Source: Gyrodactylus bullatarudis
Taxonomy: Eukaryota > Platyhelminthes > Monogenea > Gyrodactylidea > Gyrodactylidae
Length of the DNA stretch: 64,000 bases
Direction of reading: 5' to 3'
Assembly: GCA_012064415.1 (NCBI GenBank)
Contig: SSNU01000043.1
Location: 30,937 to 94,936, forward strand
The notes below the pieces were generated by a model. The model was not told the DNA's origin and made no database searches. It saw only the letters and a program-made list of their open reading frames with translations. Position numbers and translations under genes: made by a program. Shown one piece after another: positions 12,892 through 43,900 of this stretch (positions within the stretch are counted from its first letter, which is position 1; every line of letters starts with the position of its first letter).

Positions 12892-14613
12892 ATGGTAGAA
12901 ACTGTTAGTCCAAGCCGCATAACTAGGTTAATTGAAACTCATTTCTCCGATCAATATCAAAGTAAATTATATTATTCATGATCAGATGTGAAAATCAAAA
13001 TTGGTAAAGATCATCAAGCTTTCATTCCTCATTGTCGCCGTAGTGAATTTTTTGTACCAGAACCGGACAGAGACTATGCTGTCTGTCTTTGGAATCCTAA
13101 GAATTTCGTAGATAATCAACAATTCAAAGACTTTTTGTCAATCGCTAAAGACTACAAGTACCATGAAGATCAAGCGTTGACTTTCTTACAATATTGTAAA
13201 ATGGATTTAGACTTGGCAATAAAAGATGTTCCGAATTATCGTCCTATCCAGACTGAATGGTCTCATTCTGAAATATTACAATTTTTCGATTTACTAGATT
13301 CAACAGAAAAAAATTTTGATGTTATTTATAAATACTTTTCTACCAAGAAGTCAATGAAGGATTTAGTTCTTTTTTACTATCTGAACAAATACAAGCCCCG
13401 TGTTCTCTCCTCAACATTCTTAAATCACAAAAAGCATACTCAACTAGTAAAATACGGTTTATTGGAATTGAATAATGATAAAGAAATTCAAAATTCCATT
13501 CATGCTAATTATCATTTGGAATTTCAGAATTATTTTCTCACTAAACGATACAAAATGTCAACGCAGTGTGATGAAATAGACTCATCCTTGATTGAATATT
13601 TAATCAGAAAAGACGATAGAAATCTTAAGGAAGGTTTATTCTATTTAACAAGTAATATATTGGACTTATCTATTAAAAATATTCGAAGTTTGTTCGAATA
13701 TTTTATTGAATCTGAATGTATAACTTCGTTAAATGAGTCATCAAAAAATCCAAATGATTTAATAACTCTTGGTGCTGTGAAATCTCAAAGAAACTATCGT
13801 AAATACAAAAGAAATTTAAGGAATTGGTTAAACCGCCGGTGTGTAAATTTCTACAGAAAATCCCTAATCAAAGATGGTCCAATAAATTCCTCAATTACTT
13901 CATCAGAATCGAGCTATCTAAATTACATATTACTCCTAGATGAAATAGAAACAAGTTTGTTTATTTCATATGATTTTTAGATTACGACAGCAGAAAGTCA
14001 AAATTGCTCAGACAGCCTCCCTTTTTCTACGATTTGAATGAGTTGGAAATAGGTTTCACTGACAACCTTGACAAATCTGTGTCTCAAAGTCATTCGAGTC
14101 ATCCCAGTTCTCAGGAGGAAATTTACAGAGTTGTTAGTTCTAAGATATATTCATTTTTTCTTCAAAATAACTAAAAATTATGCCATTTAGCAAAGTGAAT
14201 CTGCCAATCTGATTAAATCTATGAAAAGTTTTCCTCCCGATATGGCGAATAACAACAAGTTTACAGATTTCAAGACCTGGTCAGTTGTGGACCAAAGACT
14301 TTTGCTCGAAGGAATTCTACACTACGGGATGAATCATCAGAAACTCTCGGAGAAATTGGTCTTCAAGTCTCCTCAATGTATAGCTCTATATATAAAGATG
14401 AATTGGTCTTCTCTAAACATACCAATGCTTTTGGCTTCTCGCAATGAAGGAGATGAGAATGAATGCTCAGTTTCCCTATCTGTTCCCAGCGATAATAGAA
14501 TGGATTTTGATGATAACTCCACCTCAATATCGACTACTGATGATAATTTTAATGACTGTTCAATTAATTATAAAATACCTTTCAATCCCCCAGTGACTTT
14601 GGCAAGGTTATAA
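12892..14613 (+). CDS. RCOR: REST corepressor (CoREST) homologue
   Basis: Four exons: 12892-12961, 12986-13954, 13981-14132 and 14191-14613, giving 537 residues. Introns are 24, 26 and 58 nt. An ELM2 domain (from about residue 25, with CLWNPKNF and a later ALTFLQYCKMDLDLAIKDV-type segment) leads directly into a first SANT domain (EWSHSEILQFFDLLD to VLFYYLNK). A diverged middle follows, then a second SANT domain (WSVVDQRLLLEGILHYG). This order and the linker after ELM2 match CoREST, the scaffold that joins histone demethylase LSD1 and HDAC1/2 to chromatin. The protein is strongly diverged and has a short C-terminus. A MIER/MTA-type protein is less likely because of the two SANT domains. Confidence 0.8.
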
Positions 14614-14813
14614 ATTAAATCCATATCATTATAATGAGTCTCATACATATAGAATAATAAATTATTTTTTAATCAATCATCAAAAAATTTATTCTTCTAT
14701 TAAAGGGTTCTGTTATGTTATACACAAATTGAAATTATTTGTATTATAATGATAATAAAATGAATTAAGAATCATTATCCATCATGCATTGATTTGTGTG
14801 GGTCAATTTCAAT
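14614..14813. other. Convergent 3' region
   Basis: AT-rich spacer between the ends of CoREST (plus) and the next secreted gene (minus), with AATAAA-type sites on both strands. Nothing else recognised. Confidence 0.4.
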
Positions 14814-15149
14814 TCAATATCCCTTCCTAGGAGGTGGAGGTGGACCTTTCATGGGTGGGGGAGGAGGTGGGGGTCCCTTCACAATGGTGAACGGAGGCAC
14901 TTGTCTCACATAAGTTGGCAACGGCATGGGTTGAGGCTCATCCACTTGAATAAATGTTTTTCGATTTGGATTAAAGATGACATATTTTGGATGATAGGCG
15001 AGTGGATGGTTTGGACTGACATCATACTTTGGATAAACTGATGGTGTTGGCTTCGGTTCAATGTAGACATAACCCTTTGAAGAAGATTCCACGAGTTGAG
15101 CTATAACACATACAGTCAGCAATACAATAAAATTAGTAGTATTAAGCAT
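14814..15149 (-). CDS. Secreted proline-rich protein ending in KGY
   Basis: A single exon of 111 residues. Residues 1 to about 23 are a signal peptide. The mature part is rich in Pro, Tyr and Lys, with Y-x-x-P motifs, and the C-terminus holds proline runs in two G-P(n) blocks before the final RKGY. The next gene upstream also ends in GKGY and has the same promoter motif, so the two probably belong to one structural set. No domain is known to me; a role in an extracellular coat or cuticle is inferred from composition. Confidence 0.65.
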   Translation of the reverse strand: MLNTTNFIVLLTVCVIAQLVESSSKGYVYIEPKPTPSVYPKYDVSPNHPLAYHPKYVIFNPNRKTFIQVDEPQPMPLPTYVRQVPPFTIVKGPPPPPPPMKGPPPPPRKGY

Positions 15150-16092: not shown

Positions 16093-16130
16093 TTTCTTCA
16101 ATAAACTGTACTGGGAAAATCCAAAGCTCT

Positions 16131-16140
16131 CTTATTTATA
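16131..16140 (-). promoter_or_regulatory. TATA box with GAGACTAT context
   Basis: On the minus strand the sequence reads GAGACTATAAATAAG, 39-48 bp upstream of the ATG at 16092. It shares GAGACTAT with the promoter of the neighbouring secreted gene. Confidence 0.5.
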
Positions 16141-16443: not shown

Positions 16444-19400
16444 ATGAATGATGAAAATGACCAAATATTTGCTGAAAAAGAATCTCGACTCAAAGCTCTA
16501 ACGTATGCTGTTCATTTAAAGTTTTCCGATCGAAAGCGTCGCAAGGAATGCATAAGCACAATAAATCAATTTGAGTAAGTTTTTTTAAAGAACCTTCCAC
16601 AGTCCTACAGTCAAGTTTTTATATGATGAGAAGAAGGATCTTCTCCAGGAATGTCAATTGTACAACACTCGATATGCAAAAATTCTTGATAATGTGAAAC
16701 AGCAAAAGCTACGCAACTTTATAAGGAATAGAGATTGGATAAATCTTGAAATTTCCATCGAGAAGAATAAACACAAAATAATTGACGAAAAGATTCAAGA
16801 ATGTGAGAAAAACATTGAAAAAATGAACCTGGAAAATAAAGATAAGAAGGGATTCCTATCAGCGTCAATTGATAAAAAACTTGGAGACATAAAAAAGGTT
16901 GTGGATACACATCACGAGTCTCTGAATGTAATCCATTCGCATAATACGAGTAGGAAAAATGACTTTCTACACAACGTTTTTGGGCAATTAATGAGATTTT
17001 TTCTTGATAGAAATGCGCCAGACAATTGACAACCTTTTGAGACAAAGGAATAGTTTTGATCAAGTTTACAAGAAAATACTGGCCTTTAGTACACAAATGA
17101 AGACTGAAATAAACAACTTTATGGAATTGTCCAGTCAGATGCATATAATGCGCGAAGAAGACTCATCTAGGAATCTTTACCTGCAGGAGCAAAACGAAAA
17201 GGAAATTTATCTCCATGAGAATGAAACCAAGGAACTAATGCTCGATATTGACTACAAGAATAACTTTTTGAAATTTATCGATAAAAAAATTACCAATCGC
17301 CAAAGTGACCCCTCTAGCATAACTTCTCTTGTGAGTCCTAGGATGTATATATTTTTCTTACATGATAATATCAAAAGTAATATGCTATGTTATTCTAATC
17401 TTTTTGAATTAATTATAATTAGGAGAAGAGCCTAAAGTTTACTATATGAAGGAATACAATGTAGAATAGAATGCTGTTGTTTGAATGATTCGATTCTCTC
17501 TAATAGAGGTAGATGAAAATTGTCTTATGAGAAAAAATCGACGCGGCTCTTTAGGTTTACAATAGATCGTAGTCCAATAGAATCTCTGAGTAATGATTGG
17601 CTTCAAAAATTATTGCTGGCTTTTGGTACGGACGAAGGCCGGCTGAAGCATTCTGAAGATGACCTAAAGCAATTTACCTAAGGTCAGGATCTTCCTCATT
17701 CATCAATGACAAGGGGATATTTTCAGGGTCGGCCACAAAAGAATTTGTTGTTAGAGATTCTTTTGCAATGTTCCTGATTCGATGGATTCGGAATCTTCTG
17801 ATGTGGCGCATTATGTTGAAAAATACTCTAGGAGCTTCAACAACACTTGTCTTATGTTTTGCTTCAAACCACGACGGAACATAAACTTTCATCACGAATT
17901 GCGCTAAAGCATAGAGCTTAACCTCAGGAGGATTTTTTGATACATAAAGGCGCAAAATTCTGCTGGCTGCAATGGTCCAACGTGCCATGTACATAGTTCC
18001 AATAGAAATCTTCTTGATGTATTCAATTAACATTTGATTTCCTTCAGGACCTATTAATAAATAATTATGAAAATCATCTTAATTAGCAAAAGATCGGAGC
18101 CAACGAATAGAGATTTAACTCTTATGAGCCCAGAATAAAAGCGTATTTCTATAAAAACAGTTCTAATAAAAAGTTTCAAATAATAATAACAAAAATAGTA
18201 ATAATCTCTTGCAAATTAATAGTATAACAAATTTTTCAATTAACTAAAGACTCACCTCGGTTAATCAGTTGGGCTATTCTGTATAAATACTGTTGTTCAT
18301 GTCCCAGTTTCAGAATAGATGCCTCAGCTAAAGGATATAACTCTGTTTCGATCCTGATAAATTCAACTACAGGATATTCTTTTGTTACTGCATTAAGTTG
18401 TACGCCTATCGGACCTCCAAAATTATATGGACCTTGAACTCGTCCATCATATTCGTTCACAACTTTTCGGAACACATTTTCAACTAAATGTAGAAGACAG
18501 ACAATACGTTGTATGTTTCTATTCAATACTGTTTCTAGTACTGTTATACAGCCAGTACCCGTTCCCAAGTTAGCAGCAGCACTATCACATGTAATCGCTT
18601 TCAATATATCAACGGATTCAGTTTGATTGAGAACATCCAAAATCACATTGGCAAAAGTCATTCCCGTCTGATTCGGAACTTCTTTTGATGCTACCAAACG
18701 ATTACCTGGCAAATCACTTAGCACCAAGATATTGGTCTTTTCTGACTTATCTTGGAATTTTTTCATAAGCTTCACTGTTGCATCAATTTGTAGATTTCGA
18801 ATTCTTTTAGGTGCGCCAGTTTCGAAGGCTTCTTTAGCCAGTTTGTCTTCATTTTTCAGTTTATATTCACTGAGGTAAACATGACCACTTACATTATTCA
18901 TTTCTGAATTGGCTATGTTCACGAGACCTGTTGCAGCGGCTATCGATATTCCGTGTCGCTTACAGAACATGTAAGTTTCCGGCATACGGAATTTATTATA
19001 ATTCCTATGTGGGCTACCTTCAGGGGATTCTTCATCAAATGGAGGGTCGTTATTCTCATTTTGAATAGTAACATCACTATTTTGGGTATTGTTGGTGATG
19101 TTGAGCGTATTCGGTCTTGAAGCATTCATCAGATCTGTGTCTGGGGACTCCTCAATTTCAGGAAAGGCCTCTTGAATTCTTTGTCTATCATTTTCAGCCT
19201 GGGCAATAGAGGCTTTATAATCATCAATAGTCATACGTCTGTCTGATGATTGGTCTTTCAAGAATTCCTTGGTCAGATGATGAAAAAACTTTTTCTGATT
19301 ACAAGGCGAGCGTGAAGTTGACAAGCAAGAACATCTTGCCACTGGAAAAAGCTGATTCTCTCTAATAACAAAGTTAGTAATTTTGAGGCTTGTAATAATT

Positions 19401-22349
19401 ATTGTAAGCCCGGAAAGGATTGGATTCAAGACCAAAATTCGAGCAATATATGAAACTAGAAATAGCATAGGCTTTTAATAAGGATTAATTCCAAAAATTA
19501 TTATCATGCTTGGTGATGTCGAAAATCTGAAAGAGTCGAAACTTGAAGGATTCAGAATAAATAAAAAACGTGGAAGACCATGCACAAACTGTAAAAAATT
19601 AAGAACTGAAAGAAGTAATTTAGTGTTAAATAAAATTATTTCTAGTTAGTTTTAGAATGAATTTTCTTATGAATTTCTTGGGGTTATTTTTGAAGGTTTT
19701 TTGTTTTGGTGTCGGTACAAAGAAATATTATTCTTAAAAGCTTTCTTGTCCAATAAGCCGATCAAATGAAGAGACCCCATTGTAACTTGAAAACACATTT
19801 ACTGGTTTAACAATTCTTTGATTCAATTATATCAGAGAAAATATATCGTAAAATATAACAAGTTGAAGCTTGTTTTGTCGATAAATGTTCAACTGACTTA
19901 TAAGAGCTTGACTGTATCTTTAAAATCACTTTTGAGCCACCAATAAACTTTATAGTTTATCTTCTAGACCCAATAATTTCAGCTTTCAAAGGAAATTTAG
20001 ATCGTAGATCAATCAGTTATGATTAGAGAATCAAAAATATGACCTAAAAAACTCATTTATAGGCGCCTATAAAAAGGCACTTATTTTTTTGAGTCATATT
20101 ATATGACTTTTAAAATTTTTCCTGCTACTTATGAGTAAATATTAATGAATATAAGATATAAATGTTTATTTCATTCAGTTAAATATAAAAAAATATTCTC
20201 CCTTTCCTTTTATCCTAAATATTTTTAAATGGAAACAAGTGGATTTTCGTACACATAAAATCTATATTACCTAATAATCTAGTGATAGTCTAGTTCATTT
20301 CAACTTAACTCAACAGTGTTAAGTCGACAGCTACGAATTTCATTCAGAATTATTCCAAATAAAAAATCTCTAGATTATAAATTTCGATAAGAAATCAAAT
20401 AGATTTATAGAGGGGCTGTTGAATCTCTGTAGTGATTTTACTATTTTGTATGCTAATTCAATCTCACTGAGATACAGTTTTAAAACACATTACTTTACAA
20501 AGATCTCAAGTATGGAATTCATGATTTCTCAAACATACATACATAATTGGTTTTATTTCAACTGTTTTGCAGAAACAAATTCAGAGGAGAATGAAACTCA
20601 AAGAGTTGCAACAGAAACAAACTCAAAATTTCAAGGACTCTTTTGATAAAATCTTGGATATTAATAACGTTACAGAGGTTGAAGAATTGATCAAGAAATT
20701 TGAACAGGATGTTGACAGGTATTATGCATACTTGAAATATAATGATTTTCTCTTGAATAAAATCGATGAATTCAATTCGAAAATTCACTTTGTAAGTTTT
20801 TCGAATATTTCCTTCTTCAGGGATTGAAGTTTTAATGTACTGAGTATATTATTTTCAATAACAACAATATTTTAGGAATTATTATTACAAAAAGTAGAAG
20901 CTTCTAGATGAAGTTTTCAAAAAGTAGAAGATAGATCATCAATATTTACATCCCTTATTTGCATAAAAATTCTCATAAGCAATAGTTTTTTTCAAAAATT
21001 CTCAGATGCTTTACATAAAAATGATGCTTTAATATCCAAGGCTTCTACGAACCATTTTCAATAATTTTAACATATTTGAATTAAAAGAATTGAGGTAAAT
21101 TAAATTTCTAAGATACTTGCGAAATTTTTGAAATCTTTTCGATTCATCAATCTTAATTTTTTTCATGATTTTATTCTTAAAGTACGCTTATATGAGAGAA
21201 AGAATAATCGTCAGAGTCAAGAAAATTGATGAATTCTGACATCTCGAAAATGACATTGATGCGATTAAATCGCAGCGATTTTAAGTAAACATTATAATGT
21301 TTAAACCATTACTTATTAGTAGTCGCATATATATGGTAGAATATTTTACCAACTGAGATGTTCCAAAATATAAAGACTCGAAATGGTTTCTGCGACAACT
21401 GTTGGTGTAAATTTTCTATTTTTTCAAACCTTTCTCTAGTGAAGATGTTAATTTAATATACATTTTTAATTTTTTATCAAAAAATAAGATGACTACTCTT
21501 GAGTAACCTTTAAAATTTCTTCAAGAATTCATTTACAAGGAATTGATTCAGTTGATACTAGTTGATCTTCATGGACGACTCAAGCAAATAAAATAACTAC
21601 CAGGAAAAAAATTTATTCTCGTACCGATTATTTCAGTTTTCAAAATTTGTAAAATCATTCTTTTGGATTTGAATACATTTTAGATGGGAAAATCGCTCAA
21701 TATATTCACAACGCCCCTAGGACTTTTTCATGACCCAAAAGTTTCATATATCACTAGAATCACCCTCAAAAGTTCTACGATACAAAGTTAGGCAAAGACT
21801 TTCTAAAACTATACCTAATAGGCAAATAATATAACAGTAATGAGATTAATATATGTGATTCATGAGTTAAATATGAGTAGATTTTATTTCAAGCTCATTA
21901 AATTCACGAAAATACAGTTTTTAAATATTTTGATATAGCTTTCCGAAACCAAGAAGAGAATAGATGATGAAAAAATTTTAAAGAATCAGACCCTGTCAAA
22001 GAATGAAATTGACAAGGTTAACTCGAAAATGAAATTGCTCACGTTGGAGGAGGATTCGAATAAGAGAAGAGAGATTGTTCTAAGACATTTGGAAAGCTTT
22101 TATGATAAATTAATGGAGTACTACAATGTATCAATGACAGATGAGTAAGATTATATGATTACCTTTTTCAGGGAATTGAGAACATTATCATCGTTGGAGC
22201 AACAATCGAATAGAAATATTCACAAGATCATATTTATTACAGCCAAACTGGAAGAGAACATTACCACGAAAATATTATTGTATAAGTACATAATTGCACT
22301 GGGAAAACCAAAAAACGTTCAAATTAGCAGAGTTAATGTTGTAAATTAG
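16444..22349 (+). CDS. Outer dynein arm docking complex coiled-coil protein (CCDC63/CCDC114 family)
   Basis: Six exons: 16444-16574, 16603-16949, 17011-17330, 20573-20791, 21939-22144 and 22172-22349, giving 466 residues in one frame. Introns are 28, 61, 3242, 1147 and 27 nt. The protein is almost entirely coiled coil. The stretch MRQTIDNLLRQRNSFDQVYK and a later segment, SFDKILDINNVTEVEELIKKF, correspond to conserved parts of CCDC114/CCDC63 (ODAD1/ODAD3-like). In that family they help dock outer dynein arms on axonemal microtubules. Presence of this gene implies motile cilia or flagella. The largest intron carries a transposon-type gene on the other strand. Which of the two paralogue classes it belongs to is unsure. 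Confidence 0.75.
17674..19234 (-). CDS. Transposon-type protein inside an intron
   Basis: Two exons on the minus strand, 19234-18256 and 18050-17674, join in frame across a 205-nt intron to give about 451 residues. The start at 19234 is a choice; the frame continues upstream to 19468 with an unlikely hydrophobic sequence. Features are a DSAAANLGTGTG segment, CLLHLVEN, a GPYNFGGPIG block, and then ARWTIAASRILRLYV near the C-terminal third. I recall this layout (D-x-x-x-N-x-G, CLLH-x-N-E, GP-x-x-F-x-GPIG, RW-x-x-x-x-RILRLYV) from repetitive proteins of many arthropod and cnidarian genomes, but I cannot name the superfamily. The gene lies in the 3.2-kb intron of the ciliary docking protein, antisense to it. 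Confidence 0.55.
19506..19649 (+). CDS. Small basic frame with KKRGRP motif (doubtful)
   Basis: A 47-codon frame with a basic KKRGRP AT-hook-like motif followed by C-x-x-C. It lies just upstream of the transposon-type gene, inside the large intron, and points away from it. It may be a piece of the same mobile element or chance. The AT-hook resembles the one at the end of the Mutator-like fragment at 9.3 kb. Confidence 0.2.
   Translation: MLGDVENLKESKLEGFRINKKRGRPCTNCKKLRTERSNLVLNKIISS
19650..20572. other. Rest of the large intron
   Basis: AT-rich intron sequence of the docking-protein gene. A perfect 16-bp palindrome, ttataggcgcctataa, lies near 20057-20072. No gene was recognised. Confidence 0.4.
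20792..21938. other. Second large intron of the docking-protein gene
   Basis: A 1147-nt intron joining two phase-0 exons. A nearby internal AG (20819-20820) would lead to an immediate stop, so the distal acceptor at 21937-21938 was used. Nothing else was recognised inside. Confidence 0.5.
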
Positions 22350-22364
22350 GAATAATAATTTATT

Positions 22365-22781: not shown

Positions 22782-23503
22782 ATGTCAAATAAAACTTCAA
22801 GCAGTAAATCCAAGAGAGTGAGAGATTCTCGAGAAAAGAATGAAAGAAAATCAGCTTTGAATGATGATCATGATAAGAAATCTAGTCATAGACGCCGTCA
22901 TAAAAAATCGCATAGTAGAGACAGAGCTAGAGACTCCACTAGAGAGGATAGATTAAAATTGAAAGAAATTGACAAGAAAATTAAAGAAGCAGCCAAAAAA
23001 GAAGAGAGAGAAAAACGCAATAGAGAAAAGTATGTTTTTAAAAAGTTTGGTCTATTCTTACCTTCTTGTGGAAAATCATTCTTGGATTCATTAAATGAAT
23101 TTCATTTTACTTATTAGAGAGAAAAAATCACGCCAGAAAAAGGCTGATGATGAAATATCAAAGCAGCTATTAAAAAGAGTTGATGAAGCCTTCGAAGCAG
23201 CTCTGGTTGAAAAGAGTACAGAACTTAATGAAGAACTTGAAAGAAGATACGAAGCAGAAATTCAACGACAAGTCGAGTTGAGAATTGAAGAGCTTGAAAG
23301 AGATCATCAGCGAAAAATGGAGGAAAAACAGCGTCTACAGGAAGAGGAGAAACGTAAACAAGATGAACTTGACCGTATTTTATCAGAAAATAATAAAAAA
23401 TTAATGGAATCCAGAAAGAAAGAAGTAAATATTCTATATCTAAATTTTTTAGCAAGAAATATATTTCAAAGCAACTGGTCCAGCAAACAAAGTTACTTTA
23501 TAG
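22782..23503 (+). CDS. ARGLU1: Arginine and glutamate-rich protein 1 homologue
   Basis: Exons 22782-23029, 23118-23424 and 23453-23503 (introns 88 and 28 nt) give about 201 residues. The N-terminal part is rich in Arg, Ser and Lys (RRRHKKSHSRDRARD). The C-terminal part is a long, charged coiled coil with EEEKRKQDELDRILSENN, which matches the Glu-rich half of ARGLU1, and the last exon fits its short hydrophobic tail. ARGLU1 acts in the nucleus in transcription with Mediator and in splicing. The third exon was placed because it restores the family's C-terminus. Its stop is only 5 bp from the stop of the next gene, on the other strand. Confidence 0.8.
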
Positions 23504-23944: not shown

Positions 23945-26211
23945 ATGACGACAAATCCTTTGCACACAGAAATAAGAAAGCATGCGAGTCAGAACAATCA
24001 TCAAAAGGTGCTTAGTTATTGTGATAGAGGTATATAGAAATATCTTAATTTTTCAGCCCTAAATAAGGATTCTGATGACTATTTTGCGTTCTATTGCAAA
24101 CTAGTTTCATTGACAAAATTGGAGAGATTTGATGAAATCCTAAGCATTGTGAAAAAATCTCCCAAGTTAAACAAGTATTCTTTTATAAAATTATTTAAGT
24201 GACATTTACTTTGTAAAAGCTTATGCCGAATATCGCCTCAACAAACTTCAAAATGCTCTCGCCACTCTATCCAAGGCTGACCAAAATGATTTACGAGTTA
24301 GAGAGTGCTATGCTCAAATTGTAAGTTTTTAACTCATAATTTCTTTAAAGAAATTCAAACAAGAGGAATTTGACGAGGCTTTGACCAATCTTATAATTGT
24401 TGCTAAAAATTCTACTGATGATCTTTCCGATGAGCGTACTGCCAATATTTTGGCATGTTACAATTTTACAAAAGAAAATGTACATCTGGAGGAATCATAT
24501 AAGCTCTCAGAATGTGCTTTCAACATGGCAACTCTAGAACTGAATAAAGGAAATTATGAAAAAGCTCTCGAGTTGCTTGAGTCGGCTGAAGAATTATCGA
24601 GAGAGGCTCTTAAAAATGACGAGTGCAGTGAAGAGGAGATATTAGAAGAGATTGCGCCTATCCTTGTACAAAGAGCTTTTATATGGCAAAAAGTCTATCC
24701 TGAAAGAGATGCTCTCGCACTGAAACTTCTTCACGATGTTAGCAAAAGCTGTTCCGACAATCCTTCGTTACAGGCTGTTGTTTCTAATAATATTGTTTGT
24801 TTGAATAAAGATCAAAATATTTTTGAAAGCCGTCGTAGGATGAAAAGCATGGATACAGTCACAACCTCGGCATTGCAACACAAGTTGTTGCAATCCCAAA
24901 TTTTGCTGATGGGTTTTAATCAGGCCTTATTCTATTGGAAAACTCAACAAATCGAATTGGTCAAAAGTAAAATGAAAACTCTTTCGAAAAACCTTTCAAG
25001 TTCTAGTTGTTCTGGATCTAAAAGCATTTTTCGCATAAAAATATTGACATGTCTCCTTTCAATCTGTGTTTTAGTTCGAGATAGACAAGTCAATGAAGCT
25101 TTTAAAGAGACAGAAAATTTGATTGAATTGTTGCAAAATAACCTAGATGAAACTGATACAAAAACCCGACTTTTTGCATTCCTGTTAGCTATTCAATTGA
25201 AAATGTTACCAGTTAATCAAGTTCATAGGATCATCGATTCACATGCTACACCAATCAACATGAACATTCAAAATATCTTGGCAGAAATTTCTCGTTTCAT
25301 CGAAAAATATCTCTCGCCAGATCATTTTGATTCATTTATACCTATTGTACTCAGTCTTTGGTTTACTAGTCTATCAGGAGAGTTCTTCTCCCAAAAATCC
25401 TCCGACGATAAGAATAAGCAAAAGCAAAAAATCCTAAAAGTTCTCAACCAATTCATGGAAAAATACTCCCAGGACTCCCGATCTAAAGATATTCTGATTT
25501 ATTGTGCAGATTTCATGTCACGAATCGGATTGTTCCAAGAGGCTGCCAATCTCTATGAAAAGATACTCAACGATGGTTCAGATGCAAAACTTTTAGATGA
25601 AAACTATCACAACAGCATAATGGCTAAGCTCATTAGCTCACTTGCTAGGTTCGATAGCAAAAGAGCTGAGGAGCATAGCGCTACACTTAAATTCGATGAT
25701 TTATTAACTGATCAAGAAATTGATCACTTGGAAACAACCTTCTTATTTGGGGCTAAATATGTCAAGAGTCTTGAAAGGCACAAAAATAAGTACGAATATT
25801 TTCAATCTCCCATTTTAATTAATTTATCGTTTTAATTTCAGGGATCTTTCTTCTAAATCTCCTCTGGATTCTGAAAACAAAAAGACTCATAAGAAGAAAC
25901 GCAAAACGAAACTTCCTAAAAGTTACATTCCTGGAACAGTTCCCGATCCTGAAAGATGGTTGCCTAAACGTGAGAGAACCGGTTATCGACAAAAGAAGAG
26001 AAACATTGGAAAAAATCCCTTAAGAGGACCTCAAGGCCAAACTGCTGGATCAGCCGAATGGTTAGTTGAATATATAGGTTTTTAAATATCGTTTCTAACA
26101 TTTTAATCAATTAGGGACGTCAAAGCTATGAAGAGTAAAGTTGTCGAAAAGGCTCCAGAACCTGTTAAAAGTTCAAAGGGAGGTCAGAACAAGCATAAAA
26201 AGAGAAAATAA
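23945..26211 (+). CDS. SRP72: Signal recognition particle subunit SRP72
   Basis: Six exons: 23945-24029, 24057-24174, 24200-24320, 24351-25789, 25842-26060 and 26115-26211, giving 692 residues. Introns are 27, 25, 30, 52 and 54 nt. The N-terminal and middle parts are tetratricopeptide-type helical repeats, with FVKAYAEYRLNKLQNAL and a later NNIVCLNKDQNIF segment that match SRP72. The C-terminal part has a basic Lys/Arg-rich stretch with VPDPERWLPKRER, the conserved RNA-binding signature of SRP72. The protein binds SRP68 and 7SL RNA in the particle that targets ribosomes to the ER. An upstream in-frame ATG exists (23879) but would add a Cys-rich extension foreign to the family. Confidence 0.9.
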
Positions 26212-26494: not shown

Positions 26495-28065
26495 TTAAAA
26501 TTCATCTTTAATGGAATAACGGTTTTCGTTTGGAGCGAGTTTCTTGAAAACTGATTCAGGAGGTCTAGTAGTCGATGAAGAAGAGTCCTCGCTGCCATAA
26601 TGATATTCACGATGGAGTTTTCCACTGTGCAAGTCCTTAACAAATTGATCTAGTAGGGAGGGATCTCTGGAAATATTTTTTTAAATTTCATTATAAATTG
26701 AATTGATCGATTAACATACTCAAATATTCCTGCTATCGGTTTGTTGTATGTGTACATGTGTTGAAAAGAATCAATTACTAGAAGTGGGAGATCACTCATA
26801 CTTTTACCCAGATGAGTTAATGGGTGAAGAAATGTTTGTCCGTCGGCAGTTAAAAATGTAACAGAATCTAACAGAATTGAGTAAAAATTGTGATAAATTA
26901 CCAATATGAGAAAGTTTATCCTTCACAAAGGACCGAAACTTTTGTCTAATGGGTAAGTCGAGAGAATTATAAAAGAATACTAGAAGAGGCTTTCCTTCTT
27001 CGGTTATCTCTTCAGCGTTTAAAAAGGTGAGCTCTCTGACAAAGGGAGTGGCCAAATGCTTGACCCAATCAACAATAATTTTGGAGTCAACTCCATTCAT
27101 TGATTTTTCACTTTTTAAAATCTAAAAATGCTTTGAAATTATTGGAAACTTACGTCATCTTCCTTGTAATAAATTTTTTCTTCGATATTATCGGGACTAA
27201 AATTTTTAGAATAATTAAATTGATTTACCCAAGAGCAACATAAAACTTAGAAGTTCCACCACATATACGAGAGACCTTGTCAAAAACTTGCAAGGAGTTT
27301 TTATCATTTTTTCTTAGGACTGCAATAAAAGAAACTTCGTCGCCGGCAGTGTGAATATCCTATAAATTATTATTCTAATTAGTCATGCTGTATTGACGAA
27401 AATTTAGAGCAGGTGTCTGTTAATATATTTTCTGTACTAGAAGAAAAGTTGAGTGAAAGCTAAAATGTTGGATTGATTTTTATACAATTATAAAATTGAA
27501 ATAAAACTAATTAGTAGAACCACCAATTAGATAATGAGTTATGTTGTTGTTAACTTCAACATGTAATTAAAAAAACTCACGTTTATTCCAGAAGGTACAT
27601 ATGGAATCACAGAATATTGAGAACTTTGAATATCACGAATATATTTAGAAAGAGCTTCCAATGTTCTCTCTCCTCGATATTCAGGTTTTCTCTCAGTTCC
27701 ATAGACAAAAAGTTTCAAAGTTGGAAATTTATTAACCCCATATTTTTGACTGAGAGCAACTTGAGAGACAGAATCGACTTTGGTTATTGCAACTTTCTTA
27801 TTTTTTGTATCTTCGCCAAAAGATTCACCAACTGACTCATAAATAGGAGCAAGGGCTCGACAAAAATGACACCAATCAGCATAAAAGTTGACCATAACAA
27901 TGGGATATTCAGCTATATTTCCAATTAAGTATAAGAATACTAACCTAAAATTTGATCAAAATTTTTATCTGAGAGTTGTATCACATTGGCACATGATAAG
28001 GAAAGTCCCAAAAAGAAAAGAAACCTACAATGACGCGAAAACTCTTACAGTTCATGTATTCTCAT
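26495..28065 (-). CDS. ERP44: ER protein ERp44 (thioredoxin-family chaperone)
   Basis: Exons run on the minus strand from 28065: 28065-28049, 28024-27945, 27912-27581, 27359-27229, 27196-27154, from 27121, then two further exons to the stop at 26495. Several introns are 24-32 nt. The first exon is only 17 nt and completes a signal peptide (MRIHELFLFFLGLSLSCA). A thioredoxin domain follows with NFYADWCHFC; later thioredoxin-like domains keep ERp44 features (VREL.F and IDSFQHMY), and the tail has KLAPNENRYSIKDEF at the very end. ERp44 retrieves incompletely assembled secretory proteins from the early Golgi. Two oddities: the active site is C-x-x-C, not the usual CRFS, and the retrieval signal is KDEF. 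Confidence 0.88.
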
Positions 28066-29986: not shown

Positions 29987-30385
29987 ATGTTATCGAATCT
30001 GGAAGGAATCTTCAAATCTTTAACTGATCATGAAACATACAAGAAAAGACAAGAAAATAATAAGAAAAAATGTAACTAAAGTAATAATTTTTCAGTGAGA
30101 TTGAGGAAAAAAAGTCTAGAAAACTCAATAATCCTGGTGACAAAATCAGTGAAAGAGACAATTTCTGAAATATCAAAACAAAAAGCTATAACCGTTAATC
30201 TTGAAAAAGAGAGAGAATTGGTCCAACAGAGAGTTTTTTCAATTGAGAATTACAGAAATTCTCAAAGAGAACTGAAAGAGCAAAAAAAATCGGAACTCAA
30301 AAATATTTTAAAAGAACAACACGACATGAGAGAAATAATAGCTTGGATTCCAGAAACTGACCATTCTGATTTGTTTAGTTCGTGA
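29987..30385 (+). CDS. Small coiled-coil protein, unknown
   Basis: Exons 29987-30071 and 30096-30385, joined across a 24-nt intron, give 124 residues. The sequence is almost all charged coiled coil (NLEKERELVQQRVF and similar), ending in a short IAWIPETDHSDLF tail. There is no signal peptide or membrane segment. I cannot assign a family; size and structure would suit a subunit of a small coiled-coil complex, but nothing specific supports that. Confidence 0.6.
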
Positions 30386-30448: not shown

Positions 30449-31090
30449 ATGAGTGTCGCATCTTCTACTAAAAAGAAAACTATTGTTGTATCAACGTTTG
30501 AGCCTCATTTTAGTGATGAAGATGATGATATAATAAAAGATATCCAAAATACAGGAATTCCTGATTACGAGTCTGATGTTTCTTCCAATTCATCTGACGA
30601 TGAAGAATTGGATTCGCTTAAAAACATTGCATCCAAAGTCGACACTCACTCAGTTTACAATCTTCTTAGAGATCAAGACTTTAGGAATTATGTTGAATCT
30701 AGAAGGCGGAAGCGCAAAAACTTTAAAAAGATGAATAGAGGACCAACTTGTGCAGTTTACGCAAGATTTAATGAGCTGAGAAGAGACCAACCAATCACTT
30801 TTAGTCAAATACTGAGATCAATAGTATCTCCTAAAAATGTAAGTTTACACCCTAATCTGTATTATTAAGGAATATGATTGTCGTCTGGGATTCATCGAAA
30901 GTAAACGACTTATTAACAGTTTGGTAAGATTTTTTTCATAATTTAATAGGATAAAGTGACACGAATCAAATGCTCTAATAAAGATTGCCTCAAGAGTGCT
31001 GCTAAAGATCATCGATGGGACTATAACTATTGTTCGGTTAATTGTTTAGTAAAGCATTGTAAAGAAACTTTCAAAAACAGTGTTAACTGA
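30449..31090 (+). CDS. Acidic protein with C-terminal zinc-binding motif
   Basis: Exons 30449-30838, 30870-30923 and 30950-31090 (introns 31 and 26 nt) give 194 residues. The N-terminal third is Ser/Asp/Glu-rich (HFSDEDDD, SNSSDDEEL). A basic middle (ESRRRKRKNFKK) follows. The C-terminus has C-x4-C, then YC-x3-C-x3-HC (IKCSNKDCLKSA, YCSVNCLVKHC). This last motif resembles the small C-terminal zinc-binding segment I recall from TOX4/LCP1-type nuclear proteins, but no HMG box is present. It is probably nuclear; its function is unknown. Confidence 0.6.
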
Positions 31091-31299: not shown

Positions 31300-34200
31300 A
31301 TGACAATTGTAGATCCAGGAATTTTTGCTTCTGGTTCTGGTTGTCGTGTTGTTAGAGGTCCAGATTGGAAGTGGGATGCTCAAGTAAATGATTAATTTTA
31401 TATTAGGATGGAGGAGAAGGTCATGTTGGAACTGTCCGTAAATTCGAAGCAAAAGGTGAATGTGTTGTTGTTTGGGATTCCGGTATAGTGGCTAACTACA
31501 GATGCGGAGATTTAGGTTTTGACTTGAGAGTTCTTGACAATTCTGCCACAGGAGAAAAGCATCCTGATATAATTTGTGAAAGTTGCAATGAAGTAAAAAG
31601 TATACGTAATAATACATTTTAGTCACCTATTTTCGGTATCCGATGGAAATGTTCCCAATGTTTGAATGTTGAGCTTTGTTCGAATTGTTATCATAATGAC
31701 AAGCACAATGTATCTCATAGTTTTCTTCGTATAACTATGCACCAAAAAACCCGAGTAGAGGTTGGTAAGAGATTCAAGGCTTTGAAATGGGAATCTCATG
31801 GATTATTTCCCAAAGCTCGCGTACTGAGAGGCTTTGATTGGTCATGGGGAGATCAAGATCATCTTTACAACTACTCGAATTCTTCGCATCAATCTACTAC
31901 GACGAATATTTTCAATGCAATGATCTCGAATCTAGGCAAACCAGAAGCAATTCCGAATAATGTAAGCTTATGCAGTTTGTTAAGCAAAATATTAAAAATA
32001 TAAAGAAATTTATCTGTTTAGAACAACTCAAATAATACTAATGGAAAACCATGTCATGGAAGAATTATTGACAAAAGAGACTGGTATCCATGGTCTCCAA
32101 GGTCTGCTGTTTCTGTAGCTTGGGATTCAGGAGCTTACAACGTGTACAGAATTGGTTACATGGGAATGGTGGACTTGAAATCAATAAAACCAGCCAAAGG
32201 TGGGACTTTTTATGTGGATCATCTGCCAATTTTAGCAGATTTAAGAGAATTTGACTTGCCTAATTCAATGCCGAACATTGAATCCATTGGACAACAAGAA
32301 AATCAAAACATTTTCTCAATTGTTCCGATTGAAGTTGAACAAATGAATACTGTTCATCGAAATCGTGCACGATCTAGGCCAAATCTTAACAGAGCCAATG
32401 AAGAAAATGATTTGGCTCCAAGTCTCTTAAATACATTAACCAATAGAGAAGGTGAGTTTAAATATTAGAATTAAAGTTGAATCTCATTATGTATGTAAAA
32501 CTAGAAAATTTAAGAAATTTAACTATTTGCTGATAAAGCAAGAAATCGTTTTTCCAAGTTAATAAGTTTTTAAAATTTCTTGAAGGTAACTTTGTGGCTC
32601 TACGCTCTGCTAAATCAAATGAATTACCCAGTGAAATAACCGAGAATAGCAGGGATGAAGGAATTAACTTGAGGGTTGAAGATGTTGTCAACATTGTTGT
32701 GTCTAAAGACTCATCAGATTCAAACTCTAAAAATGACGTTAGTTCCTTTTTCAAACAAAAGTATATTCTTTTTTAGCAAAATCTCTATCATTTCAGTTCT
32801 CGAATATGCCAGCAATTGTTGAAGCTATTGACACCAATTCAGGAAATATTAGACTTGTTTTCCCTCAAACTGGACAACGAATGAATTTAAATTATCGCTC
32901 GATCAATCGTGGAAACATTTCCAACCAGAAAAGTATCAAAAAGAAGAACAAATATAACAAATGTTCCTCGAGTGTGCCCTTGAATAATCCAAAAAACTTT
33001 CAACTTGTTGCATCAACAAGTCAAGAACCACCTGGTCCTGGACCCTCAACTAGTTACGGAGAACGAATGAAGAAGGAGGAGCAAAACCAAATTATTCTCT
33101 TCCAGAATGAGAATCAAGAAATTTTCCAAATTCGAAATCGACCTAGAAGTAAGAGTACCCCTGCGAAAATCTAGACATTTACGATTAAAACTTTCAATTC
33201 ATCTAGTATCGAATCCGATTGCCTCTAGTAATAATAACACTGAAATTGACCAAATTCCCAAGGAAATTTTCCGTCACAATAACCGAGAAAATGTTAATGA
33301 AGAATTCGTCAGAGCAGCTGCAGAGGGTAACATTAAGAAGTTGAACTGGTTAATCAAAAATAGAGATGTTGATGTGAGTTAAATTCGATGTATTCGAATC
33401 TTTATTTTAAGAGTCTCGGATCAAAATTCACCTATTCACTCTGATTACAAGAAATTTTCAATCTTACTCTGAATGAATTTCATTTCTCAGGTAAATGGGT
33501 CATATGCTGGATCTACAGCGCTGCAAGTAGCTTGCCAAGCTGGTCACACAACTGCAATAACATTCCTCCTGAGTCATCCTCTGGTCAGTTGGAAGCCAAG
33601 AGATCCTGATGGAAATCAGGCAATTCATGCTGCTGCACATGGTGGCAGTCCTGAGGCTGTAATGGCATTGTTCTCCTTTAAAAAGTCAACCTTTATCCAG
33701 AGCCAAGATTCCTCACAGGCCGAAGAAGATGTAGTGAGAAACCTAGTTTTCTCCCTCGCCCTATGATCATAATTGATTTTTCTTTATAGAACGTAGATGT
33801 CAACAGTAGGAATAATCTTAGGCAAACTCCTCTTCATCTGGCTGTTGGCAGGGGTAACAAGAAAGTTGTTGATTGTCTTCTTGACCAATGTAAAGCTTTG
33901 CACAATTTACAAGTAAGCAATGACGACATTTACTGGCAGCATCTCAGGCATGTAAACTATTTATTGCATATTGTATTTATCTTGTGCCATCCCTTCTGTT
34001 GTACTGTATTATGTAGATTTTATGCATTTTGTGAGTTGTCCATTTGATTTTATTTATTCCCTCTTGGCTTGAGTAAAATGAGACTTATGAATTATTTTTC
34101 AATCAGGACTGTGATGGAGATACTCCCCTTCACGATGCAATAGCATCTCATGCTGATATTGACCTTATAAGGAAACTATTGAGTACTTATCAATCATCTG

Positions 34201-37480: not shown

Positions 37481-37660
37481 CATTCCCTCATTGTTCTCTA
37501 TACTTCCTATAGAATCTAACTTGAATTGATTAAAATACATTTCGGTGTTAAATAATAATAATAAGATATAATTCTTTATTTTTCTTTAGTAGAATTTGAA
37601 TAACATAAAGTTTACATTTCATCATTGAGTTCCATGAATATTTGTTTGAAGTACCTCCAA

Positions 37661-40600
37661 TTATTCTGTCATCTCTTTCTCCTTCGTTCCTAAAAGAATT
37701 AAAAATTAGTCAAAATCAGTCAACTCACCCTTTTCCTCCTCGTCTTTATCCTCATTCTTTACTCCATCATCGTTGTCTGCGAATCGAAGAAAATTATCGT
37801 TATAATTAAACAGTACATTTTGCATAGATACTAAGTTATTCAATTACAATAATTTCTACATTTGATAGAAGATTTAAAATTCATGGTCTATTGGATCCTA
37901 TGATTTAGTATAAAATTGAATATATTCGCCTTCTATGGTTAGGATAAGGTTCCGTCTATTCAATGGATAGCTTTCATGTGGTATGATTAAATCAAGATAG
38001 AAAATTGGGAACTGGCCCTTTTATTCGATTCCTTTCACATCTTGAAATCGCCAAAAATTTTGAACTCCTTAAGTTTAAAAAAATGGAAAAATCACGCGAA
38101 ATTTTTTTCCTTGAAAGTTTGCATTTTGAATCTTTAGAAATTTCGAGACCTTGGAAAATTATCGCTTGAGAAAGTGGAGTGTTTCAATAGAACATTTAAG
38201 GGTTGTTACCCCACATTATCAAAACTTTGATTGACAATGTGCAACAAAAATGGGAACATTTCACTATGGAATTAAATGAAATTACCATTTTGTAGATTCT
38301 TATCAATTTCGTTGTTGCTCTTTGTCAACGGTACCGGATCAATGGAGACAGGTTCCAGTTTACTCTTTTCCCCCTGGTCTGTGCCGGTGAGAAAGTCCAG
38401 ATCAATGAGATCATCGAAAGCACTCTTGGGATCCTTGGATTTTTTCTTTTTTTCCTTCTTTTCCTTTTTCTTGTCCTTTTTCTTTTTCTTCTCCTCCTCT
38501 TCAGTGTCTTCTTGAGCCTCTTCCTCGTCCTCTTCCTCCTGTACGACGGTTTTCTTTTTTCGCTTGGTATCCTCCACTTCCTCTTTGGCCTGTTTGGCCT
38601 TTTTCTTCTTCGTCTTCTTTTCCTCGTCCTCTTCGTTTTCCTCTTCAGAGTGTTTTATTTCCTCCTCAGAGTTCTCTTGGTCCTCGTCCTCATCACTTGA
38701 ATGCTTCTTCTTGCTTTTGCTCTTCTTTTTACTCTTACCCTCTTTATCGCCAGACTTGTGCTTCCCTTTCCCCTCAGTCTCAGAATTTTTATGCTTCTTC
38801 TTGGTTTTCCTACTGCTCTCCTCATCATCTTCATCTTGCCCACCTTCTATTATTTCATATTTGACAGGGATAGATTCTTCCGGTTCCTTGTCATTGTGAT
38901 GACTTTTTTTCTTTTTCCCTTCCTTCTTTGATGGAGATTTTTCCTCCTGTAAATCTTCAGATGAGAAAGTATAATCAAAACTTGAGAAATTCTTATTTAA
39001 AATCTTAAAAGTTACTTTGAACGAATGAGTCTCCAAAGACTTTATCTCTAGCACTCTTTTTTTTGGGAGATGGGTCAGCTGAACTCGAAGAAGAAGAAGA
39101 AGGAGCATCTTGTTGCAGTTTCCTGCAAAAGGGGGAATAATGGATTGAAATTGTATTTTAGCAGTCATGTTAATTAAAGCAAACAAACTTTTTCCCTATA
39201 TACGGACTAGGTTGGATTACATTAACTTTGGGCTTGTTCAAATTCTCCAGGGTTGTTGCAATAATTTCCTTCTGAATGTCACTTGGGAGCCCAGATTCTA
39301 AGAAGTAAATCTAGTTAGAATTTTTATCTTTAACAAATCAACAATTGAAATTAACCTCCGTCTTCCTCTTCAGATGATTCATCTATGCTCTCTTTTTTTG
39401 GTGTTTTTTTCAGAGACTTTTCCTCTTTTTTGGACTTGGGTTTTTCCTTGGCTGGTTTCTCTTTTTCTACAATATCTTCGTCTTCATCTTCTTCCTCGTT
39501 TTGACTGAAATTATAAATTTTTAGAATTTTGCTTTAGATTTTTTTCAATCATGATCCTACTTTGCATTTTTCTTTCCGAGAAGTTTCAAGTGTTGCTTCA
39601 TGGCTTTTATCACACGTTCAGGTACAGGTACTAATCCCAAGCAGTCTTTGTCACCAATACCAAGTTTCTAAATTGGAAAAATTGTTTAGTTTTTAGCGAA
39701 ATTGAGAAGGTTAAACAAACTTCAGCTATTGTCAAGAACTGTGTTACCTTGTCCATAAGGCCAGTGAAACGAATGTAAAGGTCAAGAGCAACTTTGCCAT
39801 TTTTCCTCTTCAAGGAAAAAAATTTTTCAATCAAATTTATCATTCCCTCGTTGTATGACGCGAAAAGTCGGATAAGATCCTTATAAAGTAAAACAAAGGC
39901 AGCAGTTATTATTGGATTATCGAGATCTTTTTCTGTCGCATCAAATTCCAATAATGTCAAGATTTGTTTTTCTAGCACCGGAAGAGCTTTCAATAACTGA
40001 AAAAAATAATCAATGAAACCTATTGATCGAATAAAGGTTTAATTTTTATAAGGAAACCAGAATTAGGGCAAAACAATGAGATTTTACGACAAATTTTACC
40101 TTGTCAGTGGGCATAAGACGTAAGACACCATCTTCTCGACTTTCAAAATATAATTAATTTATTAGTTGGATTGTGAAAAATTGTAAAATATCAATTACAG
40201 AATGAACAATTCTCACCTTCTCTTCACCTTACAAAAATCAAAAGCCATCGCACGATATGAGAGCGTCTTTTCTTCAAGGTAAGCCGAATACTTTCTGATA
40301 TATAGTGACATTTCGTAAGCTAAAAACGATTTGAGATTGAGAATAAAATTTCAACTTAAGGAAACGTACATCTAGCGGTTGTTTTATCGTTGAAATTCGA
40401 TTGGTTAATTGGACAATTATTGCTTGCTAAGTATTGTGAAAATTTCTAAAAATCTTTTTAAAATGATAATTTACCTCATTTCCAAAATTCATAAGGTTGT
40501 GAATTGTAATTAGTGTTTTGAAAGCTACGGCCCATTGTTTTTCCTCTAGTCTTTCAATGAAGAGACTTGCAAGTAAAGGAATAGAAACATTTGGCTCATG

Positions 40601-40831
40601 ACTACACTGAATTAAATCTATTCAACGAATTAAAATTTTTAGTTTACAATCTAAATGTTTTTTCTTTGGAGCAATATGTTCAACTGTGGTAGCTTTAGCC
40701 ACTGTTTTACCCAATGCACTTCCAGCAATTCCATATTTTGCTTGAGTGACTCTGTCCATTAAACTCTGACCGGTCCCATTTCCAGCAAGTTGCTTAATCA
40801 TTTTACCGGCAGCTTTTGTCGAAAAGGTCAT
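37661..40831 (-). CDS. Clathrin assembly protein AP180/CALM
   Basis: A multi-exon gene on the minus strand from ATG 40831 to TAA 37661. The ANTH domain comes first: [20 protein letters not shown], then [15 protein letters not shown] (the inositide-binding lysine cluster), and later [19 protein letters not shown]. The first intron is about 30 nt. After the ANTH domain the protein has an unusually long Lys/Glu-rich low-complexity region (about 38.4-39.5 kb) and then [10 protein letters not shown], which contains a classical clathrin-box LIDLD. AP180/CALM binds PI(4,5)P2 and clathrin in endocytosis and at synapses. The start lies 139 bp from the start of MED13 on the other strand. An N-terminal extension of about 23 residues precedes the usual start. 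Confidence 0.88.
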
Positions 40832-40970
40832 TTTTAAAAGCACACAATTTAATGAATAATAGGATGAAACAAAAGAAATTCCCCTATTTAATTCTCCAAG
40901 TGTGTTTCAATTGGTTGTTAAATTGAATTTTTTCTGTAACAAAATCTCTAAAAATCCTTAATTCTCCTTG
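40832..40970. promoter_or_regulatory. Shared divergent promoter region AP180 / MED13
   Basis: Only 139 bp separate the two start codons, so both 5' untranslated regions and both core promoters must lie here or overlap. No TATA box is evident. The assignment follows from gene arrangement alone. Confidence 0.5.
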
Positions 40971-43900
40971 ATGAATCCAAATTCACCATCTCTTGAACGC
41001 TCATGTACGAATATATTTGCTTTAGTAAGATTTTTATTTATATTCTAGACTGATTTTAATGGTATACAATACAAAGTATTCACATACAAGACAGAAAATT
41101 CTTACTCGTCAATCACAGATGATCCTTTACTAAAATCTTATTTGGCCTGTCAAGACTCTATGGAGTCGATGATCTTATGTGCTTGGGTCAGAAAGCAAAA
41201 AAAGAATACGTATGACTATCAGAAGCCTCATATCTTTAAGCGGTTCTCTAAAGCTCTATATGTATTTTGGTATGGCTCTCCCAATATGCCAGATGAATCC
41301 ATTAGAATAGATCCCCGTCTCACATGTAGTGAATCTGGAAATTCACAACAACTCTCCTATGAAATTCGTAGCATGTTATTTAAAGCCTTACACAATTTAA
41401 TTGAAAAATATTTCCTAGCTAGAGGATTTCTCAGAGTCTACAAATGGTTCATTCAACCAAGCCGATATGATACTGAAAATCACAAGTAGGTATTATTAAC
41501 ATGAATATTTTTAGCTGTCATTTGGGATTTCGATTTTCATTCTTCTTACACGGTGAGAGCACAATTTGTTCGGTTGTTGACTTTAAAAGTCTACCTACAT
41601 TGTTTGTTTTATCACAAAAACACTTGGATTATTGCAAATTTAACAAAATGCGTCTCCCTGTAGTACTCTGTCCATATGGACTGGCTGGGGAACTGGTTGG
41701 TCCATCTGTTAAGGAAGTCTCTACTGAAGAAGCAGAGGAAGAAATAAAAAATTGGTCCAAATTTTATAAGATGAAAAACCTCTTTCAAGTAACTTAAAAT
41801 TAAATTTTATTCATAGAATAATTCTGAGGATTTAAACCAGAGTCTTAATACTTCAATGACCCCCAACAAGATGAAAGGAACACTGAACACCTCCCAAAAT
41901 AATATCGACTCTAGTAAAGGCTTTTCCAACTTTGTCGATGTTCTAGTTGGAGGCTATAGAATGAGATATCCGTCTAGTTTTGTACTCATTTGCAGTGATG
42001 ATATAGACGTCTCTCTATTCGACTCTGTCAATACTAATCATTCACCGAAAAAACGAAAAGATTTTGAGATGAAAAAATCTTCTGAGGAGTTCAAAATTTT
42101 CCCCAAGGAAATAATCAAAAATCATGTTGCTCTTCAGCGTATCAAGAATTTTGGGTTATGCAAGGAAAATCAAACCTCTTTTAAAAAGGTGAACCGTTTC
42201 ACCATTATCGACGGCCCTTATGTCTATTCCCTATTTAGGAAGAATTATTTTTTATCAAAATTTCAAGTAGCTCCTCAGGAAAATAGACGATGCTACCTTT
42301 CTGATCTTTATGCTAAACGTTCATTGCTGTCCTCATCGATTTACGACTCTGAAGATAAGAAATGGATATTTTCCTCTCCCTCGTGCCAGACTAACTGCAC
42401 ATGCAGTGAGGAACCTCTTTCTTGTCCTTTTATAACCATGAAAAAGTCTAACAAAAGAACTTCCTACTACCACAATCGGATGGGTATGAACAAACTCTCT
42501 GGAGATGACCTGGCAATGCTCTTTTCCAAAATCGACAAGAGTACCGGTTTTGCATACGCTCATCAAATTTCCAAAGACTATCACCATGAAAGTAGTTCTC
42601 AAATCCCTCACGAAATAACTACCTCGGTTGTCCACAGTGGAAGTAGGTTGAGGAATTTTCCAATTTTTAAAACTTCTCATTCGATTCATTTACACATTAC
42701 TTGCAGAAGATCCAGTGATGCCTACCCTCAGTCCCCAGCAACCAACTCATCTTAAAGATAAATTGGCCAATATCTCTCGTTCACCATCCATTCAACCTCC
42801 TAGTCCGAAGAAGATTAAAGTCTCAAAAGAAATTAAAAAGGAATCTGATTGCGAAGAAAACACTGGACTAGTTCGGGTTTGTAAATTAAATTTTTCTACT
42901 ATGCTTGTATAATCTACTTGTTTCAATTGAAATTTAGAACAAGTTACTCGGTGTTACTAGAAGATTAGAAGAAAACAAGACAGTCACTGGCCTAGTTGTC
43001 AATAATTTCAAGATTAAAGAGGTCTCTACTACGCCGGTATTGGCTCAGAGAGATGATATATACACAAAACCTGTCTGGCTCCTTGATGAATATGAATCGT
43101 ACAAGAATAAAAAAATCTTTGATACACAGCGTAAGATAAACATTTTTTACCAAAACTGTGTCAACAATATTACTATATCTTGTCTTGCCTTTAGAAAAGA
43201 ACACCCTCTGGAATTTACAACCTTCTGTCCTTGACTACTACGAGTTACAAGAGTACAATGAAAACATTTACGATGAGAAGCCAGTTATTAAGTATGTAAT
43301 AAACTTTGGTAATATTTGTATTATCATGATCTAATATTGCATTGACTTAGATCTGAACCGATTGAACCAAGTCAAGAATCAAAGAATATTGTGAGATCTT
43401 AATTTCCCAAATTCTGGGTTACATTAGTTCTTTAATATCATTTTTAGAATGACCAGAACAGAGATTACAAGCCCACCATAGATGTCGAAGATGCGAAATT
43501 GGGCAGATTCTTCGATGAACCCATGGAATATGTTAGTTATTTTTTTGAGTAATTCATCATTTCTCATATTCAATTTTTCTTAGGATTGGAAGTTTATGGA
43601 ACCTCACATCATCTTCAAGGGCATTAAGGGCCGAATGGGCTCATCAAATTATGAACTTCTCTCGGAAACTCACACCAAAGTTCTCAGCTCCTTCATCTAT
43701 GACCATCGTTTAATTACAAACGATCGCTACTCACTAATACCTAGTTTCAACAAACCAAACATTTTTCTCAAAAATTCTCAAGGAAAAAAGAATTCTGACA
43801 TTCAAAATGATGTTATAATCCCAAGTGAGTAATGTTTTATTACTGAATTTCGTTTTTCAGCTCGAAATTCAAAAATTGGCATTTTTTGCGCGAAATTAAT

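Follow-up and report, generated by a model that had tools for sequence, protein, structure and literature searches.

Short introns with more than one preferred length have been described in several flatworms. According to the published account for the liver fluke Opisthorchis felineus, microintrons peak at 37 and 90 base pairs (bp), are clustered and favour the 5′ end; their splice sites lie nearer to the consensus, the pyrimidine tract is often lost, and a too-high threshold had led to their under-counting in a published annotation (PMC6530080). Tapeworm introns peak at about 36 and 73 bp, with peak-1 introns favouring the 3′ end, and two short peaks are stated for Gyrodactylus salaris with no values in the text (PMC5036155). 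For the planarian Schmidtea, a short-intron peak of 57 bp has been given (PMC4978528), which disagrees with the description of planarian short introns as unimodal, 'peak-1 only' (PMC5036155). Dicyemid introns were reported to measure 26.2 ± 1.9 nucleotides (nt; n = 16), and those of Paramecium are cited in the same paper as 20–35 bp with an average of 24.8 (PMC2222250). The mean intron values of annotated Gyrodactylus genomes, 353–773, are uninformative on short classes (PMC12677651). No printed short-intron peak for Gyrodactylus was found in the open-licence literature; the G. salaris genome paper may already print it. Here, we analysed a 64,000-nt stretch of the Gyrodactylus bullatarudis genome (contig SSNU01000043.1, positions 30,937 to 94,936; hereafter the window), in which genes appear to carry tiny introns of 23–34 nt.

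In the genes from which introns were taken, short introns fall into two separate size classes: one of 23–34 nt, found close to where the gene begins, and one of about 58 nt, which is general. The sample comprises 99 coding-region junctions; 82 belong to 11 genes of the window, and six chaperonin (CCT) genes on six other contigs (loci L039–L044) of the 77,324,412-base, 471-contig assembly contribute the remaining 17. The CCT subunit labels, except CCT6, are our own assumption, and the locus labelled CCT4 resembles CCT3. All evidence on these introns is at the level of sequence. Twenty-nine introns measure 23–34 nt, 55 measure 49–69 nt and 14 measure 77–408 nt, while the gap at 35–48 nt contains a single laminin intron of 40 nt. 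The tiny class has a median of 29 nt (mean 28.5, standard deviation 3.1), and the median of the second class is 58 nt. Taken alone, the CCT introns are 28, 29, 29, 30, 31, 32 and 33 nt, then 54, 56, 58, 59, 60, 63, 68 and 69 nt, and finally 109 and 118 nt long. Tiny introns occur in 15/17 genes, with 22 in 10/11 window genes and seven in 5/6 CCT genes; they are absent from laminin and from one CCT gene.

The share of tiny introns falls with distance from the start, from 18/20 within 300 nt to 5/10 at 300–600 nt, 4/11 at 600–1000 nt, 2/19 at 1000–2000 nt and 0/39 beyond 2 kb, the farthest one lying at 1164 nt. For all CCT genes except CCT8, this distance was measured from the locus start. The mean relative rank of tiny introns was 0.243 compared with 0.500 after permutation, a value reached in 0/20000 within-gene permutations, and only 15 class switches were observed along the genes versus 26.6 expected (0/20000 permutations with as few). 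In 12 of the 13 genes holding both classes the first placed intron is tiny, the exception being ARGLU1. MED13 has introns of 24, 29 and 28 nt followed by eighteen of at least 52 nt, Mind bomb has 23 and 30 nt followed by fourteen of at least 54 nt, and the order in SRP72 is 27, 25, 30, 52 and 54 nt. ERp44 contains a 221-nt intron amid its tiny ones.

The two groups also differ in their donor sites. Adenine at +3 was found in 26/29 tiny versus 32/70 longer introns (p = 4e-5), and guanine at +5 in 14/29 versus 63/70 (p = 2e-5), whereby all p-values serve as guides because introns within one gene are not independent draws. The contrast persists within 1300 nt of the start, where +3A occurs in 26/29 tiny versus 7/19 longer introns (p = 2.5e-4) and +5G in 14/29 versus 18/19 (p = 1.3e-3). 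Since, in addition, longer introns near to and far from the start have similar donors (p = 0.43 and 0.66), the donor signature tracks intron size and not position. Overall, the donor is GTNAGT-like and the acceptor is T-rich at −3 to −10, tiny introns having acceptors like those of longer introns, and T is present at +7 in about 60% of introns of both classes. A preceding sequence-only reading of this DNA had proposed that introns of such sizes offer hardly any space for a branch point and a pyrimidine tract. In line with the former, no branch-point word or enriched 5-mer stood out in the placed introns, but the interiors of the tiny introns are T-rich (54% versus 44% in longer introns). A yTnAy site occurs in 22/29 tiny and 64/70 longer introns, a motif too loose to count as evidence.

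To place the introns, the peptides flanking each gap were fixed, and all GT..AG removals that leave the frame open were listed. A GT-AG solution was found at 99/99 frame-defined junctions and was unique at 69; at the 30 junctions with several options the best-scoring one was used, the score having been trained on the 69 unique junctions. Seven junctions had no GT-AG solution at their first anchors; six of them were given new anchors by hand, and the remaining one, the first of laminin, was dropped. Among the CCT anchors, one pair without an option was re-anchored, one was narrowed and two were dropped, the frame simply continuing there. One junction of the PICALM-like gene was re-anchored as well, which changed its length from 46 to 50 nt. 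The choice of anchors was also guided by the sequences of relatives.

At the close-anchored junctions (anchors at most 50 nt apart; n = 30, one of which was later found to be mis-anchored), GT-AG provides a solution in 30/30 cases. Decoy pairs composed of these letters or of their complements solved only 5 (TG-GA), 4 (GT-GA, TG-AG and GA-TG, each), 2 (AG-GT) and 1 (CT-AC) of the 30. A/T-rich pairs solve more of these junctions, with a maximum of 25/30 for TA-TT, as expected because the DNA is AT-rich; the median over 256 pairs is 4. All 29 tiny introns either have a length that is not a multiple of three or contain an in-frame stop, the latter being present in 10/10 of those with a multiple-of-three length. 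Only one of the 99, a 69-nt Mind bomb intron, could be kept without either a frameshift or a stop.

The spliced proteins were then compared with relatives of solved structure. The alignment to MIB1 (4xi6) is gapless at both tiny introns of Mind bomb, and in CCT6 the introns of 31 and 30 nt likewise fall at gap-free places of the alignment to CCT zeta (4b2t). MED13 aligns with its relative (8t9d) without a gap at the 24-nt intron and with a 2-residue gap beside the 29-nt intron. Residues 18–376 of spliced ERp44 align with 5xwm, gapless at the 32-nt intron of the thioredoxin domain and less cleanly at some other introns. Furthermore, the spliced proteins gave matches to ELM2, SRP72, ARGLU, ANTH and Pkinase, and SRP72 also matches SRP_TPR_like over 19–143, slightly below the cut-off. 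The zinc protein has no Pfam family match, and its introns, like that of the small coiled-coil gene, were placed by frame only. Apart from their introns, the genes are full length (2223 amino acids for MED13 and 1341 for Mind bomb).

These results bear out most of the sequence-only reading, which had listed introns of 23–32 nt in at least ten genes of an animal. The eight introns for which it gave coordinates all start with GT, end with AG, have the lengths and places it claimed and join two open frames upon removal. Its 27- and 25-nt introns in SRP72 were recovered together with one of 30 nt, its 28-nt intron in ARGLU1 was found, and larger introns do coexist with tiny ones in the same genes. 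The pair of 27 and 28 nt that it ascribed to a docking protein most likely corresponds to the two introns of coiled-coil genes at the end of Table 1, placed by frame only. That these are spliceosomal-type introns of an animal is likewise supported as far as sequence can indicate. COX1, which lies on a contig of 14.9 kb, has 12 in-frame TGA codons; translated with the flatworm code, it shows 89% identity to the sequence representing a Gyrodactylus cluster of 68 members, followed by 84% to Macrogyrodactylus and 83% to two other gyrodactylids. This points to a gyrodactylid monogenean, most likely a Gyrodactylus. For Mind bomb, the eight best named matches are flukes and tapeworms. An arthropod origin, initially suggested by a glutamate receptor-like channel and small proteins rich in repeats, is rejected by these two comparisons.

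The splicing machinery was inspected in the same assembly. Two U1 loci lie above the Rfam cut-off (L037:1501-1653 and 2067-2218; G000:C9) and differ at their 5′ ends, AAACUUACCUGG in one copy and AAACUUACUUGG in the other; one copy carries ACUUACCUGG, which is capable of pairing with the donor. Both have A at position 2 where the consensus has U, and this A could pair with the T at intron position +7. Three U2 loci were found above the cut-off, two of them with GUAGUA. At least one U1 copy and two U2 copies contain the standard pairing cores, and U5 and U12 RNA genes are present as well. U2AF65 (L009, G000:C344:30782-32164) is encoded by one open frame of 502 codons that matches positions 22–510 of the 510 positions of the family model, whereas the window genes studied are intron-rich. 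The match to SF1 is partial (positions 36–111 of 114). An altered spliceosome as the cause of the tiny introns is unsupported by the U1, U2, U5 and U2AF65 seen, in a search that did not extend to U4 or to further proteins.

The ACAGAGA box of U6 is near-invariant. In the best U6 match (L045:1501-1603, G000:C154:241223-241325), ACAGAAA replaces the ACAGAGA of the Rfam consensus, and a divergent second match (L046:1501-1601) also has AGAAAAGATTAG. A pattern search of the genome with that base left free and up to 3 mismatches returned one place, and the 5′ part of the match folds no better than shuffled sequences (z = 1.09). One possibility is that this match is a truncated pseudogene and that the assembly lacks the true U6; another is that the box truly varies here.

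Table 1. Tiny introns located in the window, with window positions and the evidence for each placement.
Intron	Position	Strand	Evidence
24 nt, CoREST-like gene (ELM2)	12962..12985	+	frame; ELM2 match begins directly after junction
26 nt, CoREST-like gene	13955..13980	+	frame
28 nt, ARGLU1, second of two placed introns	23425..23452	+	frame; ARGLU match
27 nt, SRP72	24030..24056	+	frame; SRP72 match of spliced protein
25 nt, SRP72	24175..24199	+	frame
30 nt, SRP72	24321..24350	+	frame
34 nt, ERp44	26868..26901	-	frame; ERp44 alignment
32 nt, ERp44	27122..27153	-	frame
32 nt, ERp44	27197..27228	-	frame
32 nt, ERp44	27913..27944	-	frame; gapless versus ERp44
24 nt, ERp44, signal-peptide region	28025..28048	-	frame only
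26 nt, protein kinase	28498..28523	+	frame; Pkinase match spans junction
24 nt, small coiled-coil gene	30072..30095	+	frame only
31 nt, zinc protein	30839..30869	+	frame only
26 nt, zinc protein	30924..30949	+	frame only
23 nt, Mind bomb, shortest of the 99	31384..31406	+	frame; gapless versus MIB1 4xi6
30 nt, Mind bomb	31593..31622	+	frame; gapless versus MIB1 4xi6
29 nt, PICALM/AP180-like gene (ANTH)	40446..40474	-	frame; ANTH match
30 nt, PICALM/AP180-like gene (ANTH)	40618..40647	-	frame; ANTH match
24 nt, MED13	41025..41048	+	frame; gapless versus MED13 8t9d
29 nt, MED13	41486..41514	+	frame; adjoining 2-residue alignment gap
28 nt, MED13	41789..41816	+	frame
28 nt, coiled-coil gene, probably the docking protein of the sequence-only reading, outside the 99	16575..16602	+	frame only
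27 nt, coiled-coil gene, outside the 99	22145..22171	+	frame only

The window contains several other features. An inverted repeat at 37132-37485 has 159-nt arms that are 99% complementary and 36 nt apart. Open reading frames at 1460-3424 and 10153-12620 resemble what we take to be Penelope-type elements (reverse transcriptase plus GIY-YIG end); the frame at 11628-12620 shows matches to RVT_1 and GIY-YIG, both under the Pfam cut-off. On the minus strand, a Lig_chan ligand-gated ion channel resembling ionotropic glutamate receptors (76.8 bits) lies at 59336-59935, and a small protein built of KAAPVYVKAAPV-like repeats at 15598-16131.

In all likelihood, the tiny introns would be ordinary U2-type (GT-AG) introns and, within the class of flatworm microintrons, an extreme form. 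The spliceosome would most likely recognise them by intron definition and remove them from the RNA by splicing, and nearness to the front of the transcript may aid this recognition. In other systems, the cap is known to assist the splicing of first introns. Thanks to the front position, the weaker donor, with +5G in half of the tiny introns, could be tolerated provided that +3 is A. Taken together, the length gap at 35–48 nt, the rule on position and the contrast between donors suggest two recognition modes and not one size range. Several points weigh against this interpretation. The anchors were picked by eye and the borders are GT-AG by construction, because solely GT-AG solutions were listed, so that the decoy comparison is the real test. 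Over 305 kb, GT-AG pairs that bridge frames numbered 2156 versus 2212–3126 for the decoys, an uninformative count without excess, and a scan of donor–acceptor distances over the same length gave no clear excess at 23–31 nt. Outside the window and the CCT genes, an ab initio gene finder predicted 14 introns of 23–34 nt compared with 2–9 for seven decoy pairs, which lends weak support. In this set, +5G was found in 5/14 tiny introns versus 36/49 (p = 0.013), and the difference at +3A (12/14 versus 31/49) was not significant (p = 0.19). The fifth tiny intron of ERp44, more than 1 kb into the gene, clashes with a strict cap rule. The gene finder used here had been retrained and recovered 58–62 of the 82 window introns, depending on the setting; a first, self-trained version was rejected, as it was over-fitted and skipped coding triplets (15, 18 and 21 nt).

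Other explanations of the same segments were considered. A stronger proposal, which we regard as possible but rather unlikely, is that the tiny introns form a separate splicing class, too short for U1 and U2 particles side by side and recognised via the capped 5′ end, which would have its own donor (GTAA with +5G optional), while introns farther away would need at least about 49 nt and GTNAG. Alternatively, tiny and 58-nt introns could belong to one class with continuously distributed lengths, in which deletion bias acting on a compact genome would have produced the short ones as a lower tail. The genome size of 77.3 Mb and the 57 bp peak given for the planarian (PMC4978528) make such size pressure plausible; however, only 1/99 introns falls between the groups of 29 and 55, and both donor composition and gene position differ between them, which renders a single class improbable.

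Sizes under the usual animal minimum could also mean that the segments are kept in the mRNA, bypassed in translation or removed without the spliceosome, and short introns of the latter kind are described (PMC5435141). Since retention of any of the 29 tiny segments would introduce a frameshift or a stop, GT-AG fits 30/30 close-anchored junctions, the acceptors are like those of longer introns and U1 and U2 genes are present, we consider this very improbable. That the segments are insertions of assembly or sequencing, or marks of pseudogenes, has next to no probability in view of the same 30/30 fit compared with 1–5 for the decoys, the otherwise full length of the genes and the recurrence of tiny introns in CCT genes on other contigs.

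Set beside the described systems, the putative U2-type tiny introns share with flatworm microintrons the two short peaks and the flatworm host, and with those of flukes the position near the 5′ end and adjacent to each other. In contrast to the 36–37 nt of flukes and tapeworms, the first peak lies at 23–34 nt here. The donor is less consensus-like than that of longer introns at +5 and more so at +3, whereas fluke microintrons are reported to be nearer to the consensus, and the interior is T-rich here, whereas frequent loss of the pyrimidine tract is described for the fluke. As described for tapeworms, peak-1 introns lie toward the 3′ end, whereas the tiny introns here lie at gene fronts. Dicyemid introns, going by the published sample, are of similar size but uniform, while here this size is one of two short classes, located near gene starts in another animal group. 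The same size range is seen in Paramecium, a ciliate in which nearly all introns are of that size. The planarian peak of 57 bp resembles the second class, and the available text on it mentions no class of about 30 nt. The sequence-only reading, which had named ciliates and dicyemids as the known cases, was thus right about the similarity in size and overlooked the flatworm microintrons (PMC6530080, PMC5036155). What seems to be new is the shorter size, the near-strict order within genes and the donor that is weaker at +5, although the values of G. salaris may overlap.

If this organisation holds in RNA, one genome would possess short introns of two sizes, sharply separated in length and divided by distance from the start and by donor. 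It would then offer a direct test of the smallest intron that an animal spliceosome can handle and of the help provided by the 5′ end of the transcript. Because 15/17 genes hold a tiny intron, an annotation that sets the minimum intron length at 30–40 nt or higher would disrupt the exons at the front of many genes in this flatworm.

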